A DNA stretch of 64,000 nucleotides from the NCBI GenBank assembly GCA_002352205.1, contig DEHZ01000013.1, forward strand, positions 62,001-126,000. The letters run 5' to 3'. Each line of letters begins with the position of its first letter. The first letter of the stretch is position 1. Position numbers and translations under genes: made by a program. The stretch is from Flavobacterium sp. UBA2787 (lineage in GTDB: Bacteria > Bacteroidota > Bacteroidia > Flavobacteriales > Flavobacteriaceae). Below, one piece after another: positions 54,366 through 60,319 of the stretch. Under the pieces are notes generated by a model that was given only the letters and a program-made list of their open reading frames with translations, was not told the DNA's origin and made no database searches.

Positions 54366-54558
54366 AACCCGCTGGGTGTAATTAAATTTTGGAATAGTTT
54401 TGCCACTAATTCACTAATTTTTTTAGGATGATTATTCGATTTAATTCGAATTTTCATCATAGATGAACAAATTATCGCGGTTGTTTATTTTAAAATTCGA
54501 GAATTCGAGGTAAAATAGTTACAGTATTCTTGAATTAAGTAATTACACCCAACGGGTT
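54366..54558. mobile_element. MITE-like element, 19-bp terminal inverted repeats, 5-bp target duplication
   Basis: The left end AACCCGCTGGGTGTAATTA (54366-54384) and the right end TAATTACACCCAACGGGTT (54540-54558) are inverted repeats with one mismatch. CTATT stands immediately outside both ends (54361-54365 and 54559-54563), consistent with a target-site duplication. The 193-bp unit has no coding capacity, so it would be moved by a transposase encoded elsewhere. The family cannot be named from the ends alone. Confidence 0.75.
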
Positions 54559-54617
54559 CTATTATTTTATTTTTATCTCATTTTTAATTTTGCGGATTGC
54601 AAATGGGTTTGATTACT

Positions 54618-54625
54618 TTATTTTT
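54618..54625 (+). repeat. Target-site duplication, left copy
   Basis: TTATTTTT directly outside the left terminal inverted repeat, identical to 60053-60060. Confidence 0.8.
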
Positions 54626-54651
54626 GGCAATAACATACTTGTGTAACCCAA
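54626..54651 (+). repeat. Left terminal inverted repeat of the transposon
   Basis: 26 bp starting GGCAATAACATACTTG; the exact reverse complement is at 60027-60052. Confidence 0.95.
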
Positions 54652-54711
54652 AAAAATTAAAATTACTTAAAACTAAAATTTGTAATTTTTTTAAAGATAA
54701 TATTTATTATC

Positions 54712-55206
54712 TTATTCTTTTTTCTTCAAGTAGAAAATTGTATCGCTCTCTTTTAAACGAACAAGATTCTCGCTTTTTTTGGCTTCCGATGAAATATGCG
54801 ATTTGGGTTGTTCCGTTGTGGATTCTATTTTGGTTGGTGGTTTTTCTGCGAATGATTTTATTATGTTAAATATGCTGTAAAAACCACCAATAACACCCAG
54901 AATAAGAGCTGGCCAAAGAGTGTAATATTTGAATCTTGATATTTTTAGGTCTAAAATTTCTTTCTCTATTAATCTTTTTTCCTTTAAATCTTTTTTCTCT
55001 ATATATGATTTCCAACTGCTACATTGCAAAACTTCTCTTCCTAAATCACTTGGTTCAAAGATGTCGGGGTTAACGTAAGGTGTTATCAAATATCCTTTAC
55101 TTTTTAACATAAGAACAACTGTGCGTGAAGGATTATTAAAGCCAGCAGTAATTTGACCATTTATTAATAATGTGGCAAAAATTGATTCTACGTGTTCGTC
55201 GAACAT
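54712..55206 (-). CDS. Passenger: single-helix membrane protein with winged-helix-like N-terminus
   Basis: A 164-residue protein. Residues 1-60 (FDEHVESIFATLLINGQIT; TVVLMLKSKGYLITP; FEPSDLGREVL) resemble a winged-helix fold. A basic amphipathic helix (KKDLKEKRLIEKEILDLKISR) follows, then one membrane span (WPALILGVIGGFYSIFNII) and a polar tail. A TATATTTG -7 box is at 55229-55236. It lies inside the transposon, divergent from the 507-residue gene. No function is recognised. The layout would suit a membrane-tethered regulator or an effector, which is speculation. Confidence 0.7.
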   Translation of the reverse strand: MFDEHVESIFATLLINGQITAGFNNPSRTVVLMLKSKGYLITPYVNPDIFEPSDLGREVLQCSSWKSYIEKKDLKEKRLIEKEILDLKISRFKYYTLWPALILGVIGGFYSIFNIIKSFAEKPPTKIESTTEQPKSHISSEAKKSENLVRLKESDTIFYLKKKE

Positions 55207-55228
55207 TTTTATAGATTTTTGGTATATT

Positions 55229-55236
55229 CAAATATA
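55229..55236 (-). promoter_or_regulatory. -7 box for the leftmost passenger gene
   Basis: TATATTTG on the minus strand, about 22 nt before the ATG at 55206. Confidence 0.5.
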
Positions 55237-55238
55237 AT

Positions 55239-55268
55239 AAAAAACCCTGATTAATTTTGGGGTTTTTT
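55239..55268. terminator. Bidirectional terminator-like hairpin between divergent passenger genes
   Basis: AAAAAACCC (55239-55247) pairs with GGGTTTTTT (55260-55268). A terminator between divergent genes is unexpected. It may insulate them or be a leftover of gene acquisition. Confidence 0.55.
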
Positions 55269-55318
55269 ATTGGTTCGAATTTTTTGTTTACATTAGTTGT
55301 GGAAACCAAACTATTATA

Positions 55319-56842
55319 ATGGACTTTAAAGAGATTTACGAATCTTTCGAGCGTGAAAACCGTATCGATAAAATTGCCAACGAAGAAGATGTAAAAAACT
55401 ATACAGGTGTTACTTCTGTTGGAGATAAGTTTTCTATTTTTCCACCACCCGAAACACGAGAAAAAGCCTTAGAATGGCTTGAAAAATACTACGGAGCTAT
55501 AGAAGCTGAAGTTTTAGTAAGTCAATTTAAAAGTAAATTTCCGATTGAAGTAAGACCTTTGCAAGACCAACTAAAAAAAATTAACCAATTCATAGAAGAA
55601 GCGGATAGTATGAACAGCGTTGATGCGGTTGAGGGTACTAATTTAAACAAATCAAATAAAGACCATTACGAATATTTGAAATGGAAATGTGGGCATTACA
55701 AAGTTGCTCCCTTTTACAGTTCACATACATTTATTTCTTCCGATTTAAAGCGTGTTTATGGTAAATATGTTCTTTATAAAAAATGGCTTGAAGAAGAATT
55801 AAGAAATATATTAGTAAGCACTCCTATTATAAAACAGAAAGAAGCGTTGAATTTTTTTGAAACAAAAAATACTCAAGGAGAAATTACAATTTTTGAAAGA
55901 ATTAAAAGAGAATTAAACACAATTCAATGGATATGTTCTTCTCAATCAATGACTGTAGAAAATGATTTTGATGGCATTATTAATGAAGATGGCAGAGTTT
56001 GTTTGACAATAAACATTAGGTCAGATAGACCATTAAACTTAATTGAAGATTATAAGCAACATTATACGGATAGGTTTGAAAACGCAAAGACTCAAGTTGT
56101 AGTTAGAAATGAGTTGATAGAGATATATCATAAAGCACGATACGTATATAATCTGTTCAAAAAAGCTATATTTCCTGCACTTAATGATTTATTGGTTTCT
56201 TATGATAGTAATCCTAAATTAAGAATCGAAACAGAATCTTACAGATCAATGATAATATTGGTTGTTGATTACCATCCTAAAAATATATTATTTGGATATA
56301 AAAGTAACTCAACTGACCAAAGAACATTGTTTACAATCCGTGACTATAATTATGTTGTTAAGAATGCTGATTTGGTTGATTTTTGTTTGGATTTAATTAA
56401 CTTCATTAATACGTTTGAAATTCCCGCATTAATGTCTAAAGAAAATGAAGAAACGATTACTATGAAAGACGATTTAGAGGTCGAAATTGCCCACCGTTCA
56501 GAAAAGCCATTCTTGTTTGAAAGCAATCAATCAGCCGAATTAAATACTAAACATCCTAAACATAACCCAAATATTTGGAATGCAAGGTGTTACGAATTAT
56601 TCAAATATCTTTTTGAAAACTATTATAGCGGGAAAAAGACCCAATTAATGAATATTTGGTTTTTCCTTAAAAGCGACATTGGAACAGATTATACACCTAA
56701 CCCTCCTAGAGATTTATATTTGAAGTTTATTTTTGAAGAATACGAAGTTAAAATAACAAACTATGACAAGCCTGATAATTGGTTTGAAAAGCACTTACCT
56801 ATACTTAAAGGACATCTTAGTAATTTTGAGGAAAATATTTAA
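55319..56842 (+). CDS. Passenger: 507-residue protein of unknown function
   Basis: A soluble protein without signal peptide or membrane helices. The N-terminal 200 residues are mostly helical and charged (PPPETREKALEWLEKYYGAI; LKRVYGKYVLYKKWLEEELR). A central part holds NIRSDRPLNLIEDYKQHYTDRFENA. The C-terminal 110 residues (FKYLFENYYSGKKTQLMNIW; YEVKITNYDKPDNWFEKH) recall hypothetical proteins found on Bacteroidota mobile elements. I recognise no enzyme motif. It is the largest cargo gene of the transposon and so the best candidate for the trait it carries. Confidence 0.75.
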   Translation: MDFKEIYESFERENRIDKIANEEDVKNYTGVTSVGDKFSIFPPPETREKALEWLEKYYGAIEAEVLVSQFKSKFPIEVRPLQDQLKKINQFIEEADSMNSVDAVEGTNLNKSNKDHYEYLKWKCGHYKVAPFYSSHTFISSDLKRVYGKYVLYKKWLEEELRNILVSTPIIKQKEALNFFETKNTQGEITIFERIKRELNTIQWICSSQSMTVENDFDGIINEDGRVCLTINIRSDRPLNLIEDYKQHYTDRFENAKTQVVVRNELIEIYHKARYVYNLFKKAIFPALNDLLVSYDSNPKLRIETESYRSMIILVVDYHPKNILFGYKSNSTDQRTLFTIRDYNYVVKNADLVDFCLDLINFINTFEIPALMSKENEETITMKDDLEVEIAHRSEKPFLFESNQSAELNTKHPKHNPNIWNARCYELFKYLFENYYSGKKTQLMNIWFFLKSDIGTDYTPNPPRDLYLKFIFEEYEVKITNYDKPDNWFEKHLPILKGHLSNFEENI

Positions 56843-57121
56843 TAACGCAAATTGCAACGCAAAAAATAACGCAAAAAACGCAATTCGCAACTCTTTTTTA
56901 AAACTTTTTAACGCACGTACTTTGTAACATCAAACATCATAAACTGCGACAACCTCATTGTTGATGTGTTCAGAAGTTTGTAAAACGAAAAGTACCACAT
57001 TAGAGTGCTGATTGAAGAAAGCTTTGTTAAAGACGTGCCAAACAGATAGCCGTTGAAAGTCTAAGTAGCTCCGGTTCATACCAAAAGCGAAAAACGGAAC
57101 AGACAGAGTGAATGACAAGGA
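56843..57121. other. Non-coding transposon segment with AACGCAA words
   Basis: Directly after the 507-residue gene come several closely spaced AACGCAAA/TTGCAACGCAA words (56844-56895). A GC-richer stretch follows to 57121. A 62-codon minus-strand frame (56930-57118) exists but lacks supporting features. The contrast in base composition suggests a functional RNA or a decayed gene. Confidence 0.4.
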
Positions 57122-57172
57122 GTTACAGCGATTCCCGAAAGCCGTGAGAAGTAAGTAGGGAACCGCCGTAAC
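57122..57172 (-). ncRNA. Candidate structured RNA hairpin, better paired on the minus strand
   Basis: Arms 57122-57136 and 57158-57172 pair over 15 positions. On the plus strand two positions would be A-C mismatches, but on the minus strand both become G-U pairs (GTTACGGCGGTTCCC with GGGAATCGCTGTAAC). That asymmetry suggests an RNA read from the minus strand, divergent from the transposase gene. Confidence 0.45.
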
Positions 57173-57190
57173 AAATATAAAAACAAAATT

Positions 57191-57216
57191 TGTAATTATA
57201 TCACGAAATAATTACA
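57191..57216. promoter_or_regulatory. Inverted repeat upstream of the transposase gene
   Basis: TGTAATTAT (57191-57199), an 8-nt spacer, then ATAATTACA (57208-57216). It lies just before the probable transposase promoter (TTG at 57224-57226, 20-nt spacer, TATATTTA at 57247-57254), so it is a possible operator. Confidence 0.5.
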
Positions 57217-57274
57217 GAATTGCTTGTTTATGTAAATTTAACAACGTATATTTACACCATCAAACAGCAACAAT

Positions 57275-58213
57275 ATGAAAACCGCTAAAGATTTAAGAGA
57301 TTTCGACAGTTTGTTTCAACTACTTGACTACTTCACAACAGAAGAAATTTGCGAACAACATTTAGCTGTTATTCGTTGGAACGGTGTTCCTACTTGTCCT
57401 TATTGCGAAAGCGATAGAGTTAACTCTTTAAAAGGAAAAACACAACGTTACAAATGTTACGGATGCCGTAAACAATTTGGTGTAAAAGTTGGAACTATAT
57501 TTCACGATTCTAAAATATCTTTGCGTAAATGGTTTGTTGCTATCTACTTGGTTACTTCACACAAAAAAGGTATTTCGTCACATCAATTAGGACGTGATTT
57601 AAAAATCAGTCAAAAATCGGCTTGGTTTATTTTACAGCGTATTAGAGAAACCTACAACCCGAAAGCGGAAGTTTTCACAAATGAAGTAGAAATTGACGAA
57701 ACTTATATCGGTGGAAAAGAGAAAAACAAACACGCTAATAAAAGAACCGAAAACACACAAGGTCGTAGCATCAAAACTAAATCGCCTGTACTTGGAATTT
57801 TAGAGCGTGATGGTAAAGTTTATGCCGTTCCTGTTAAAGATACTAAAGCACAAACTATATTGCCAATTATGGTAGCAAAAGTAGATGCCGGAGCAACGGT
57901 TTATACTGATGAATACCGTTCTTATTCTACGTTACACAAAAACTTCAATCACGAATTTGTTAGACATAGTGCAAACGAATATGTAAGCGGAAATGTTCAC
58001 ACAAATAATATTGAAAACTTTTGGTCGTTATTAAAAAGAGGATTAGATGGAATTTACCACCACGTTTCAGACAAACATTTAGGACGTTATGTAAATGAAT
58101 TTACTTTCAGATATAACAACAGAGGATTGTCAGAGGGAAGTAAATTTGATGTAGCTTTGGCAAACGGAGCGAACAAAAGATTAGATTATAAAACGCTAAC
58201 TAATGACAAATAA
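57275..58213 (+). CDS. IS1595-family transposase (ISXO2-like)
   Basis: A 312-residue full-length transposase. The N-terminal zinc ribbon has CPYC and CYGC (about residues 42-68). A helical DNA-binding part contains HQLGRDLKISQKSAWFILQRIRE. The ISXO2-like catalytic domain has EIDETYIGGKEKN (first Asp), YTDEYRSY (second Asp) and HTNNIENFWSLLKRG, and the family tail KHLGRYVNEFTFRYNNR. It should mobilise the unit between 54626 and 60052. Its end overlaps the start of a 46-codon gene by 11 nt, so that small gene is probably coupled to it. Confidence 0.95.
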   Translation: MKTAKDLRDFDSLFQLLDYFTTEEICEQHLAVIRWNGVPTCPYCESDRVNSLKGKTQRYKCYGCRKQFGVKVGTIFHDSKISLRKWFVAIYLVTSHKKGISSHQLGRDLKISQKSAWFILQRIRETYNPKAEVFTNEVEIDETYIGGKEKNKHANKRTENTQGRSIKTKSPVLGILERDGKVYAVPVKDTKAQTILPIMVAKVDAGATVYTDEYRSYSTLHKNFNHEFVRHSANEYVSGNVHTNNIENFWSLLKRGLDGIYHHVSDKHLGRYVNEFTFRYNNRGLSEGSKFDVALANGANKRLDYKTLTNDK

Positions 58214-58343
58214 AAAACCCAAAAAAGGCGACATACCAAAACCAAAAGAAGATGTACGGATTGAAAAGGATAAACCTAAATTCAATTCCGTACTTTCCTC
58301 TATTGTAAAGCCTAAGAAAAAAGACGATGAAAGCACTACGTAA
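58203..58343 (+). CDS. 46-residue lysine-rich protein coupled to the transposase
   Basis: An ATG at 58203 inside the transposase stop region opens a 46-codon frame. It is rich in Lys, Pro and Asp (MTNKKPKKGDIPKPK near the start, IVKPKKKDDESTT at the end). Overlaps at both ends, 11 nt with the transposase and 17 nt with the next gene, suggest a coupled three-gene unit. It may be an accessory DNA- or RNA-binding peptide of the transposon. No family is recognised. Confidence 0.55.
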   Translation: MTNKKPKKGDIPKPKEDVRIEKDKPKFNSVLSSIVKPKKKDDESTT

Positions 58344-58551
58344 ATTATATACTGCTAACCTTGATAATGAAGTTGTACTATTTGCAACCAATTTAAAAGA
58401 CTTTATAGAAGCGTTTGACAAACTTGAACCTGCTGCAAATGTGCGAAACTATGCATATTATAGACGTGAATTTATGAAAACGTCTATTATACCATTTACC
58501 GTAAAAGACAACAAGATATATAATTTACAAGAAGTGTATAAAGGAGATTAG
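58327..58551 (+). CDS. 74-residue transposase-linked protein of unknown function
   Basis: A small basic-to-neutral protein (MKALRKLYTANLDNEVVLFA; VRNYAYYRREFMKTSIIPFT) with a predicted beta-alpha-beta pattern and no signal peptide. It overlaps the 46-codon gene by 17 nt, an arrangement hard to explain by chance, and ends 30 nt before the promoter of the next passenger. Function is unknown; a transposition accessory or a cargo product are both possible. Confidence 0.6.
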   Translation: MKALRKLYTANLDNEVVLFATNLKDFIEAFDKLEPAANVRNYAYYRREFMKTSIIPFTVKDNKIYNLQEVYKGD

Positions 58552-58580
58552 TTTTTTTAAGTTTAAAAAGAATAGATTTA

Positions 58581-58588
58581 TATATTTG
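58581..58588 (+). promoter_or_regulatory. -7 box giving a long structured leader
   Basis: TATATTTG on the plus strand predicts transcription from about 58595, which puts some 220 nt of structured sequence in front of the outer-membrane barrel gene at 58816. Confidence 0.5.
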
Positions 58589-58630
58589 TAAAATAAAATA
58601 TCGGAAAATATAGCGTTAGCTATTATCGTG

Positions 58631-58760
58631 GTCTTGAAATCTGACAGTTACAATACGCCACAAGATAATAAGTCGATGCTCATGCTATGGCGTGGGTGTG
58701 CTTTATCTTGGCGTAGGGTTTTGTCAGAACCTCAAGACGGATGAAGCTACAAACCCACGC
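58631..58760 (+). ncRNA. Candidate structured RNA with pseudoknot
   Basis: Nested stems: GTCTTGA (58631-58637) with TCAAGAC (58732-58738); CTGACA (58641-58646) with TGTCAG (58722-58727); TACGCC plus AAGATAA (58654-58668, 2-nt bulge) with TTATCTTGGCGTA (58703-58715). The terminal loop contains GCGTGGGT (58690-58697), which pairs perfectly with ACCCACGC (58753-58760) outside the stem, forming a pseudoknot. It lies in the predicted leader of a passenger gene inside the transposon. It could be a cis-regulatory RNA, a stand-alone RNA or a DNA structure used in transposition. Confidence 0.6.
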
Positions 58761-58815
58761 TTGTTATTTTAAACAACTTCATTTTTTGGGTTTAAATGAA
58801 ATAAAAACAAAAAAG

Positions 58816-59355
58816 ATGAAAAACACTTTACTAATTGTATTTGCTTTAATCGCATTCGAATCTAATTGTCAAATTAATTTTGGACTAAAAACAGGTGTAA
58901 CATTTATTGATAATCGAAATGAAAATGAAGAAGTATTTTATTTAGATCCTTCTGCATTTATCTCGGGGATGCTTGAATATAAAAATGAAAATTTGACTTA
59001 TGAGTTTGAATTGTTGTATTATCAAGCTTCTGGAGAATCACAAACAAATGATGTGAAAACAAAGTACAATGTAACTTCTTTTTTACCTTCATTAAGTTTT
59101 AAATACTATCCAGTTGATAAGTTTAATATTAAAACAGGACTATATATAAATCCGTCAAGAGTTGTACGCTCATCAGTTACTCAAAACATTGAAACTCAAA
59201 ACAAAACATACCTAAAAGACATTGGTATAATATTAGGGATGGAAGCTTTTTTATACAAAGGACTGTTCTTAGATGGAAGATTTTTAATAGATTTGAATAA
59301 TTCCGATGATATAAAAACAACTCACATGATACTAGGTATAGGGTATAAATTTTAG
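58816..59355 (+). CDS. Passenger: outer-membrane beta-barrel protein
   Basis: About 180 residues from ATG 58816 (MKNTLLIVFALIAFESNCQ, a signal peptide). The frame is open to 58741, but the upstream part overlaps the structured RNA. Alternating strands (INFGLKTGVTFID; LTYEFELLYYQASG; FNIKTGLYINPSR; MILGIGYKF with a terminal aromatic) match the small outer-membrane barrel families of Bacteroidota. It is an unusual cargo for an IS-type transposon. A strong terminator follows. Confidence 0.75.
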   Translation: MKNTLLIVFALIAFESNCQINFGLKTGVTFIDNRNENEEVFYLDPSAFISGMLEYKNENLTYEFELLYYQASGESQTNDVKTKYNVTSFLPSLSFKYYPVDKFNIKTGLYINPSRVVRSSVTQNIETQNKTYLKDIGIILGMEAFLYKGLFLDGRFLIDLNNSDDIKTTHMILGIGYKF

Positions 59356-59384
59356 ATTAAAAATACCACTATTATAGAATAAAC

Positions 59385-59412
59385 AAAGCCCCTAATAACT
59401 TAGGGGCTTTTT
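59385..59412 (+). terminator. Terminator after the barrel gene
   Basis: AAAGCCCCTAA, loop TAAC, TTAGGGGCTTT and further T residues: an 11-bp perfect stem. Confidence 0.9.
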
Positions 59413-59415
59413 CAT

Positions 59416-59423
59416 TACATTTG
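59416..59423 (+). promoter_or_regulatory. -7 box for the rightmost passenger gene
   Basis: TACATTTG, 19 nt before the ATG at 59443 and directly after the terminator. Confidence 0.5.
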
Positions 59424-59442
59424 ATAAGACTAATAGTAAAAT

Positions 59443-59871
59443 ATGAAAATACAGTATATTGAACCTATAATAAAATTTGACATAAACAATGATGCTATCA
59501 CGCAAAGAATACCATGCGGAGAGGTCTTAAATTATATTGAAGAACAAATTGGTGTTGAAAATGCACCAAAAGGGCATATATGGATTAGAATTTATATTCA
59601 AACAGAAATATACGAATTAGCTTCAAAAAAAATAGTTCTTCATTATGAGTTTGCTTTTACGGGGTTCGCCGTCCCAAATACCAAAGAAAAAGATGCCAAT
59701 GATATTTTATCTTTTGTAAAAAATACCTTGATAAGTCACCAAATGTACTTCCAAGAGAACGCTCCAAAAGAAATATCTGATTTCCAGTTAATAGATAAGC
59801 CAAACTATGAACTTTACGTGAAAAATATGATGGACGTTTTAATTCGTAGTGGAGTTTGTTACCAACAATAG
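59443..59871 (+). CDS. Passenger: 142-residue soluble protein of unknown function
   Basis: A protein with no signal peptide or membrane segment. An N-terminal beta-rich half (MKIQYIEPIIKFDINNDAIT; HIWIRIYIQTEIYELASKKI) is followed by a helical C-terminal half. I do not recognise it. It has its own promoter after a terminator and ends about 155 nt inside the right end of the transposon. Confidence 0.68.
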   Translation: MKIQYIEPIIKFDINNDAITQRIPCGEVLNYIEEQIGVENAPKGHIWIRIYIQTEIYELASKKIVLHYEFAFTGFAVPNTKEKDANDILSFVKNTLISHQMYFQENAPKEISDFQLIDKPNYELYVKNMMDVLIRSGVCYQQ

Positions 59872-60026
59872 TGTGTTTATTTTTATGTGTTTCCATTTTT
59901 TTACATCTTTGATTATTCAAGCCAACCAAACGAACTTTCTTTTGTAGTGTTGGCGAAATTTATTTAATTAGATTTTTTATTCCTACCAAAAAAATACATA
60001 TTAGGTAGCTTAAGGATTTCGGGCAA

Positions 60027-60052
60027 TTGGGTTACACAAGTATGTTATTGCC
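60027..60052 (-). repeat. Right terminal inverted repeat of the transposon
   Basis: The exact reverse complement of 54626-54651 over 26 bp. Confidence 0.95.
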
Positions 60053-60060
60053 TTATTTTT
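60053..60060 (+). repeat. Target-site duplication, right copy
   Basis: TTATTTTT, identical to 54618-54625. It covers the stop codon of the WYL-regulator remnant. Confidence 0.8.
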
Positions 60061-60283
60061 TTATTGCTTCATTGTTTTCTGAGTATTTATTACCAGCTCT
60101 TCCTAAAATAGCCTTGATTCGATTGCGTAAACTTTCAGGTTTCAGAATTTCAATTCCGTCGCCGAAGCCAAGTAGTAGCCTTTCCATTTCATAATTTTCA
60201 ATTAGAAAGAGGTTAACGATTATGCTACCGTCTTCGTTTCACAGATAAAATATTTTCTTTGTGAACGGCGGTCCTTTTATTGG
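60053..60283 (-). pseudogene. C-terminal remnant of a WYL-domain transcriptional regulator
   Basis: Read on the minus strand, 60053-60238 encodes NEDGSIIVNLFLIENYEMER and then LLLGFGDGIEILKPESLRNR. This is the C-terminal WCX extension of WYL-family regulators, ending with its natural stop at 60053-60055. One in-frame stop (TGA, 60239-60241) interrupts it. A short upstream piece (PIKGPPFTKKIFYL) continues to about 60283, where homology ends. The helix-turn-helix and WYL core are missing. The transposon inserted exactly at the stop codon, so it did not itself break the reading frame. Confidence 0.75.
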
Positions 60284-60319
60284 TTAGTTATTAAAATCTA
60301 CTTTTACAAACGATTTTGA

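Follow-up and report, generated by a model that had tools for sequence, protein, structure and literature searches.

What travels with an IS1595-type transposase when the genes beside it fit no familiar set, and is any part of that cargo organized for controlled expression? The question is raised by a 64,000-nucleotide stretch of Flavobacterium sp. UBA2787 (contig DEHZ01000013.1, positions 62,001 to 126,000; hereafter the window), in which a sequence-only reading had recognized a transposon at 54618–60060 with cargo of uncertain character. We confirm a complete IS1595-family passenger transposon of 5427 bp, with one IS1595-family transposase inside, and find 5′ of its outer-membrane barrel gene a structured RNA that the earlier account of the cargo omits (Table 1). 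The account we think narrowly probable, judging from comparisons of sequence, is that this part of the element is a mobile expression cassette in which a structured cis-acting leader would control an exported protein.

The RNA has the shape of one long hairpin, with fold z scores against shuffles of −4.97 (58552–58800) and −6.68 (58611–58815). Across 24 copies, 28 of 47 base pairs have changed on both sides, giving 179 two-sided-change cells against 51 (standard deviation, s.d., 6) in shuffles, counts that come from an alignment fitted to the structure and are inflated by related rows; on a nine-sequence alignment made without the structure, 11 of the 47 pairs carry two-sided changes. The covariation score of the fold is 0.502, against 0.199 (s.d. 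0.010) for shuffled versions (0 of 500 as good) and less than 0.08 for versions slid along the alignment. Among 1107 cells, the wobble pairs G-U and U-G number 133 and their other-strand mirror, A-C and C-A, only 8, which argues for selection on RNA of one strand: this pattern of substitution shows the predicted fold to be under selection as RNA of the cargo-sense strand.

A second element of structure joins the RNA to the gene behind it. The loop of a short pre-start hairpin (GGGTTT) is complementary to AAACCC in the 3′ arm of the RNA, and the start codon of the barrel gene lies 15 nt past this hairpin. Arm and loop letters change together from copy to copy (CAAGCTC/GAGCTTG in locus L114, AGTTCC/GGAACT in L117 and others, AAATTCC/GGAATTT in L120 and AAACCTC/GAGGTTT in L136). 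In 25 aligned copies, 94.0% of cells are paired and 27 have changed on both sides; the pseudoknot score is 0.486 against 0.201 (s.d. 0.028), with none of 500 shuffles as good. Taken as a set, the copies' own arms also fit the regions behind them better than permuted arms do (0 of 5000 permutations in 27 copies, among which L121 and L128 fit poorly). By covariation, then, the arm–loop pseudoknot is shown to exist.

Copies of the RNA are scattered well beyond this genome. Besides the window's own, 299 genomes of the genus hold eight copies at 71–82% identity, in six other genomes; a match in genome G147 covered only the other half of the joined query (27 nt) and is not this RNA. Six of the eight lie inside complete IS1595-type elements, and no element ends were found for the RNA loci L076 and L077. 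Covariance models built from nine sequences (R1) and from 24 copies (R2) find the RNA, respectively, in 43 of the 349 genomes searched from the family, which represent 34 of 237 genera, and in 34 of 296 phylum genomes (18 of 139 genera); numbers of copies are lower bounds, as 8 (R1) and 10 (R2) candidates per genome were scored. In a Bacteroidales element (L018) a copy was suspected from context; it went into neither model, and R1 scores it at 34.8 bits, R2 at 50.6. The RNA reaches the gathering cut-off of no Rfam 15 family (best match drum, 20.3 bits, cut-off 43); the Rfam matches of the window are weak, and four of the five fall on the terminator-like hairpin that follows the barrel gene. 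Searched by blastn against plasmid and phage sequences, the RNA cassette returned no match. One of two viral contigs picked by pattern (L229) has the RNA at 82 bits, the other being without it; on this contig from a viral collection the RNA occupies 2608–2770 of the minus strand, and an exported-looking gene of 172 amino acids (aa) starts 48 nt behind it.

The copies occur in two genomic settings. We sorted 90 distinct copies by context, with rules made after the contexts had been seen, into 41 of class A, 39 of class B and 10 of neither. Class B copies have a divergent helix-turn-helix (HTH)-like gene no more than 300 nt upstream, or else lack a nearby start codon and have a SusC-size gene within 1 kb; class A has a start codon 26–65 nt behind the RNA and is not B. 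An IS1595 transposase lies within 4.5 kb of 13 of the 41 class A copies, compared with 0 of the 39 class B copies (p = 8e-5). Eleven of these 13 sit inside complete elements with exact 8-bp repeats (complete-element ends were not found for L115 and L117), and other class A copies lie among genes that look mobile by eye: recombinases, a primase and an ISAs1-type transposase. By a crude test on uncurated gene starts, 33 of the 41 class A genes encode a hydrophobic N terminus (24 of 32 once nine seed copies, described below, are removed), against 144 of 475 more distant open reading frames (ORFs) of these loci (p = 3e-10). Ten class A carrier proteins compared with Pfam gave nothing over cut-off. 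In this class no permutation of the arms equalled the observed fit, with 0 of 5000 in all 41 copies and 0 of 5000 in the 17 outside the pseudoknot alignment (one of which, L018, was already part of the 27-copy test); the effect was weak in class B (7 of 5000), and the 10 unclassed copies gave 60 of 5000. Separately, four loci (L197, L209, L216 and L217) place the RNA directly 5′ of one family of 68–96-aa proteins with the motif FxYxASxxSxF, not obviously exported.

Class B copies lie 200–800 nt 5′ of a SusC-sized gene and are without the pre-start hairpin layout. Partly by definition, and with genes identified by profile or size, a small divergent HTH gene accompanies 35 of the 39 and a SusC-size gene 28. 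One such copy is in the window's own genome (L147, 7193–7341; G000:C6:235192–235340), where Pfam recognizes HTH_3 and a TonB-dependent receptor and where no Rfam 15 family reached cut-off; other class B loci are among L129–L152 and L184–L215. The RNA of this class is a candidate partner of nutrient-receptor operons. Both classes bear signs of transcription: the box TAnnTTTG, given as the flavobacterial sigma-A box in the excerpted text of PMC9723704, lies no more than 60 nt upstream in 36 of the 39 copies of class B, where 2.9 would be expected, and in 20 of the 41 of class A, where the expectation is 1.8. The closing stem runs into TTTT in 36 of 39 and 31 of 41 copies, respectively. Box and U-run together support an RNA transcribed from a start of its own; class A transcripts may end there or run on.

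Comparison of transposases suggests that RNA and transposon have separate histories. The window transposase shares 39–50% identity with those of ten other RNA-bearing elements (24% to that of L115; the truncated transposase of L117 was left out of the comparison, and the L032 row of the tree is a methylase ORF). Next to five of those 39–50%-identical transposases stand copies that match the window RNA at 77–82% identity. With so similar an RNA in the company of distant transposases, a transfer of the cassette from one transposon clade to another is most likely.

In the account we favour, the transposase would act on the two ends and move everything between them. The cassette would read, in order, promoter-like box, RNA of about 153 nt, short hairpin pairing with the 3′ arm, and barrel start codon; the leader may gate the exported protein by stopping transcription at the closing stem and U-run and, alternatively or additionally, by keeping the start region tied up in the pseudoknot. 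Elsewhere, in a second transposon clade and in DNA that looks like other mobile DNA, this leader precedes different proteins, which argues for an exchangeable control unit with mostly envelope cargo. Several observations pull the other way. Within the window's own transposase clade the RNA is present in 1 of 11 elements, the ten relatives (60–88% identical, L009 included) sitting at loci without an R1 match. Because the nine seeds came from a window-based search, we recomputed the transposase contrast without them, and it falls to 6 of 32 versus 0 of 39 (p = 0.006), or to 5 of 31 if L018 is removed as well (p = 0.014). An IS1595 transposase is missing from the 4.5 kb around 28 of the 41 class A copies, the gene behind the RNA is not exported-looking in at least four copies of that class (L139, L150, L189 and L213), and box and U-run, occurring in both classes, fit a separate small RNA equally.

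That last point belongs to the best-surviving rival, which we regard as rather unlikely: here the RNA would be an independent small RNA that acts in trans and has a promoter and a terminator of its own. The barrel gene would be a neighbour and one of its targets, and pairing with the pre-start hairpin would be how the released RNA finds the barrel messenger RNA. Besides the promoter-like box and U-run, the class B layout, remote from the SusC-sized gene and lacking the pre-start hairpin, would suit such an RNA; the class A start codon within 26–65 nt would not, and the arm–loop pairing, being local and covarying within each copy, is of the kind expected in cis. A second rival, in our view improbable, makes this an ordinary passenger transposon, with the RNA an elaborate terminator or insulator against outside transcription and the barrel a chance passenger. 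ORFs beside the transposase are indeed usual (28 of 28 relatives), and the closing stem plus U-run would suit a terminator, but a terminator has no need of 28 covarying pairs, of a covarying pseudoknot that has a hairpin behind it or of conserved internal loops. Least credible is a hairpin acting as DNA, a recombination site with a role like that of attC, the site of gene-cassette exchange in integrons: one leader with varied genes behind it on varied carriers would agree with this, but the strand bias of the wobble cells marks a one-strand RNA where an attC-like site should show no strand preference, and the start codon stands at a fixed distance.

The cis-acting leader may itself be part of something larger. 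A tentative extension, to which we give less credence than to the cassette, is a phylum-wide Bacteroidota class of RNA controlling envelope proteins, in which class B would work next to a divergent HTH regulator and a receptor operon of SusC/SusD type and class A would be a portable, largely mobile pseudoknot leader, with the HTH protein or nutrient state as the signal.

IS1595 family members make 8-bp duplications and some carry passenger genes; the family was reportedly described, passenger-bearing members included, by Siguier et al. in 2009. The element shares with them its transposase domains, ends that begin with GG and resemble those of relatives, an 8-bp target duplication and passengers. 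Its transposase matches Pfam DDE_Tnp_IS1595 at 4e-44 (150.7 bits, cut-off 27), the zinc ribbon domain at 36.9 bits (cut-off 25.4) and NCBIfam IS1595 at 4e-62 (209.8 bits, cut-off 75). At 5.4 kb it is unlike the Ralstonia IS1595/ISPna2 members, which the excerpt of PMC7371123 lists at 700–1287 bp. The three structural claims of the sequence-only reading stand as made: the 26-bp inverted repeats are complementary at 26 of 26 positions, the 8-bp duplication is exact on both sides, and the transposase is of IS1595 type. Across the 17 contigs and 3.73 Mb of its own genome, the 26-bp end, allowing up to 3 mismatches, occurs at the two element ends only, and a reversed control gives 0. The same search of 398 genus genomes, which the earlier reading had proposed, returns 3: the own genome, G343 (a pair of ends spaced 3.4 kb apart) and G120 (a single end, its second end having more mismatches; locus L008). 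That the whole unit moves as one had also been proposed. The anatomy supports it, and no empty target site was found among 80 relatives, so joint movement is argued from anatomy.

Searching a genome collection with the window transposase gave 52 loci. Inverted ends with an 8-bp flanking repeat were accepted in 28, the repeat being exact in 27 (that of L009 has one mismatch, and the ends of L017 are mismatched at 6 of 20 positions); acceptable ends were not found in the other 24, several of which are cut contigs. The 29 elements, window included, measure 2134–5427 bp (2.1–4.8 kb for the 28 relatives), and every one has ORFs beside the transposase. A Pfam test of 20 passenger proteins, three of them from outside elements, gave DUF3800 (L006), PIN (L007; below cut-off in L011), HTH and an IrrE-like peptidase (L008), Bro-N (L013) and P63C with NYN (L018); methylase-like ORFs were seen by eye in L032 and L048. 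End sequences are nearly identical to the window's in L006–L008 and related in the other accepted loci. The earlier reading had counted repeats that delimit unrelated sequence elsewhere against a single unit, and in part this is what L006–L008 present, with nearly the same ends around different cargo. Same-type ends, different cargo, a shared core and target duplications together argue for cargo exchange in one transposon family and against an artefact; the IS1595-type elements read as having ends and transposase in common and much of the remainder swapped. L117 and L011 share a gene pair (247 aa and a PIN-like 234–236 aa) 3′ of an IS1595 transposase, which in L117 is truncated.

Two small proteins belong to the shared core. 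The earlier reading took them as cargo; their small, mutually overlapping genes (46–50 and 74–89 aa) come after the transposase gene in the window and likewise in L006, L007 and L008. L009 and L010 keep the microprotein in its usual place, L011 has it behind two cargo genes, and in L010 the 74-aa homologue lies 5′ of the transposase on the opposite strand. Being kept with the transposase in the closest relatives, the two are counted as core, and we infer that they are candidate transposition helpers. The 46-aa microprotein matches no Pfam family; the best Foldseek match of the 74-aa protein has E 0.24 (AF2 model, predicted local distance difference test (pLDDT) 65). Next to the IS1595 transposases of the window, L006–L011 and L013–L016 there is a microprotein that has the motif D-[VIL]-[RK]-[IL] and ends in a lysine-rich tail; L031 and L048 have look-alikes.

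The remaining cargo is sparse in relatives. The barrel protein narrowly passes OMP_b-brl (PF13505; 31.9 bits, cut-off 28.7), its gene most likely starting at 58816 to give 179 aa. The 507-aa protein occurs in 3 of 349 family genomes, its own included; its C-terminal part resembles a 232-aa protein of G530 (36% over 171 residues) that adjoins integrase-like and HTH-like genes (named by eye), and its N-terminal part a 472-aa protein of G576 (31% over 167 residues). It has no plasmid or phage relative at E 1e-5 and no useful PDB match (best E 0.42), and its single-sequence model is uninformative (pLDDT 33). For the 142-aa protein, a search of 111 genus genomes returned 1, its own. Neither Pfam nor NCBIfam gives the 164-, 507- and 142-aa proteins a match over cut-off. 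As the sequence-only reading had it, no resistance or metabolic family is matched in the element. Its guess of a defence module finds no support: PADLOC, Pfam, NCBIfam and PHROGs give nothing over cut-off or at E < 0.001 for the 164-, 507-, 74- and 142-aa proteins, the sole PADLOC match being the 74-aa protein (E 0.011, 11.9 bits). Surface variation was its best-faring guess, in so far as there is a barrel here and mostly hydrophobic N termini follow the RNA elsewhere.

Around and between these genes, three further stretches were examined. A GC-richer non-coding stretch 5′ of the transposase gene (56985–57180) has a fold z of −1.69, little above chance, and its relatives in the 299 genus genomes are itself and the 27-nt match in G147. 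The left flank (54416–54560) is a repeat with at least six further copies in the own genome (83–94% identity). The right flank (60061–60310) matches parts of G012, G023 and G032, which are element-free there, and looks by eye like a gene remnant.

Table 1. Features of the transposon and its ends (window coordinates)
Feature	Position	Strand	Basis
8-bp target duplication, left copy, TTATTTTT	54618..54625	.	read off sequence
26-bp terminal inverted repeat, left	54626..54651	+	100% complementary to right end; pair unique in own genome
164-aa cargo protein	54712..55206	-	ORF; no family above cut-off; ORFs of 13 other elements include no relative
507-aa cargo protein	55319..56842	+	ORF; no family matched; C-terminal part like G530 protein beside integrase-like gene
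IS1595-family transposase, 312 aa	57275..58213	+	Pfam 4e-44, NCBIfam 4e-62
46-aa core microprotein, overlaps transposase end	58203..58343	+	42-50-aa homologues in L006-L011; no Pfam family
74-aa core protein, overlaps microprotein	58327..58551	+	homologues in L006, L007, L008, L010; AF2 pLDDT 65
promoter-like box TATATTTG, consensus TAnnTTTG	58581..58588	+	read off sequence; consensus from excerpt of PMC9723704
structured RNA, ~153 nt	58611..58763	+	cmsearch; covariation; fold z; no Rfam 15 family
pseudoknot arm AAACCC	58751..58756	+	arm-loop pairing tests
pre-start hairpin	58778..58800	+	loop part GGGTTT (58788-58793) pairs with arm
179-aa outer-membrane beta-barrel protein, cassette gene	58816..59355	+	PF13505
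terminator-like hairpin and U-run, 3′ of barrel gene	59386..59412	+	read off sequence; weak Rfam matches here
142-aa cargo protein	59443..59871	+	best Pfam match DUF5128, below cut-off
26-bp terminal inverted repeat, right	60027..60052	-	26/26 complementary to left end
8-bp target duplication, right copy, TTATTTTT	60053..60060	.	read off sequence

Set against what is known, the transposon is by its sequence an elaborate form of a known family, and the RNA a family without an Rfam 15 match. Riboswitches and other cis-regulatory leaders are conserved 5′ leaders. The window RNA resembles them as a conserved 5′ leader with a pseudoknot near the start codon, and its covarying fold at a fixed distance before genes is what marks a regulated leader; unlike them it is transposon-borne and matches no Rfam 15 family, and its regulatory role is putative. 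Rfp18 of Flavobacterium psychrophilum is likewise a flavobacterial structured RNA tied to secreted proteins, a small RNA described as affecting metalloprotease mRNAs and as having a predicted pairing region in its third stem-loop (PMC9723704, excerpt); the window RNA, one long hairpin, is set apart from it by that description, not by sequence. The candidates of PMC8040213 are, similarly, predicted structured RNAs near Bacteroidetes envelope genes. Among them HMP2_1032, from the human microbiome and near TonB, is 106 bp long and palindromic on both strands, unlike the RNA of about 153 nt described here, a comparison made with the description in that paper and not with its tables. The Rfam scans take in those motifs of PMC2864571 for which Rfam has an entry, as far as the excerpt of that paper lists them; Bacteroides-2 and GUCCY-hairpin, without an entry, fall outside the comparison.

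Literature searches returned nothing joining IS1595 with P63C, nor anything joining transposon, noncoding RNA, Flavobacteriaceae and pseudoknot, and for IS1595 elements we found no description of two coupled small core proteins or of a structured-RNA cassette. The RNA was not recognized by title or start of abstract among the matches listed for susC, and no published account of it was found in the literature searched, a scope that leaves out subscription papers and the tables of PMC8040213.

The choice of surface proteins is central to the ecology of Bacteroidota, and RNA control there is little known. A strongly covarying, transposon-borne RNA before mostly exported-looking proteins provides a concrete, testable handle on it, and shows IS1595 passenger transposons as probable vehicles for whole cassettes of control plus gene. 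If the wider, phylum-level reading is true, the class A leader would plug foreign exported proteins into the envelope control of the host, with IS1595 transposons as one carrier.

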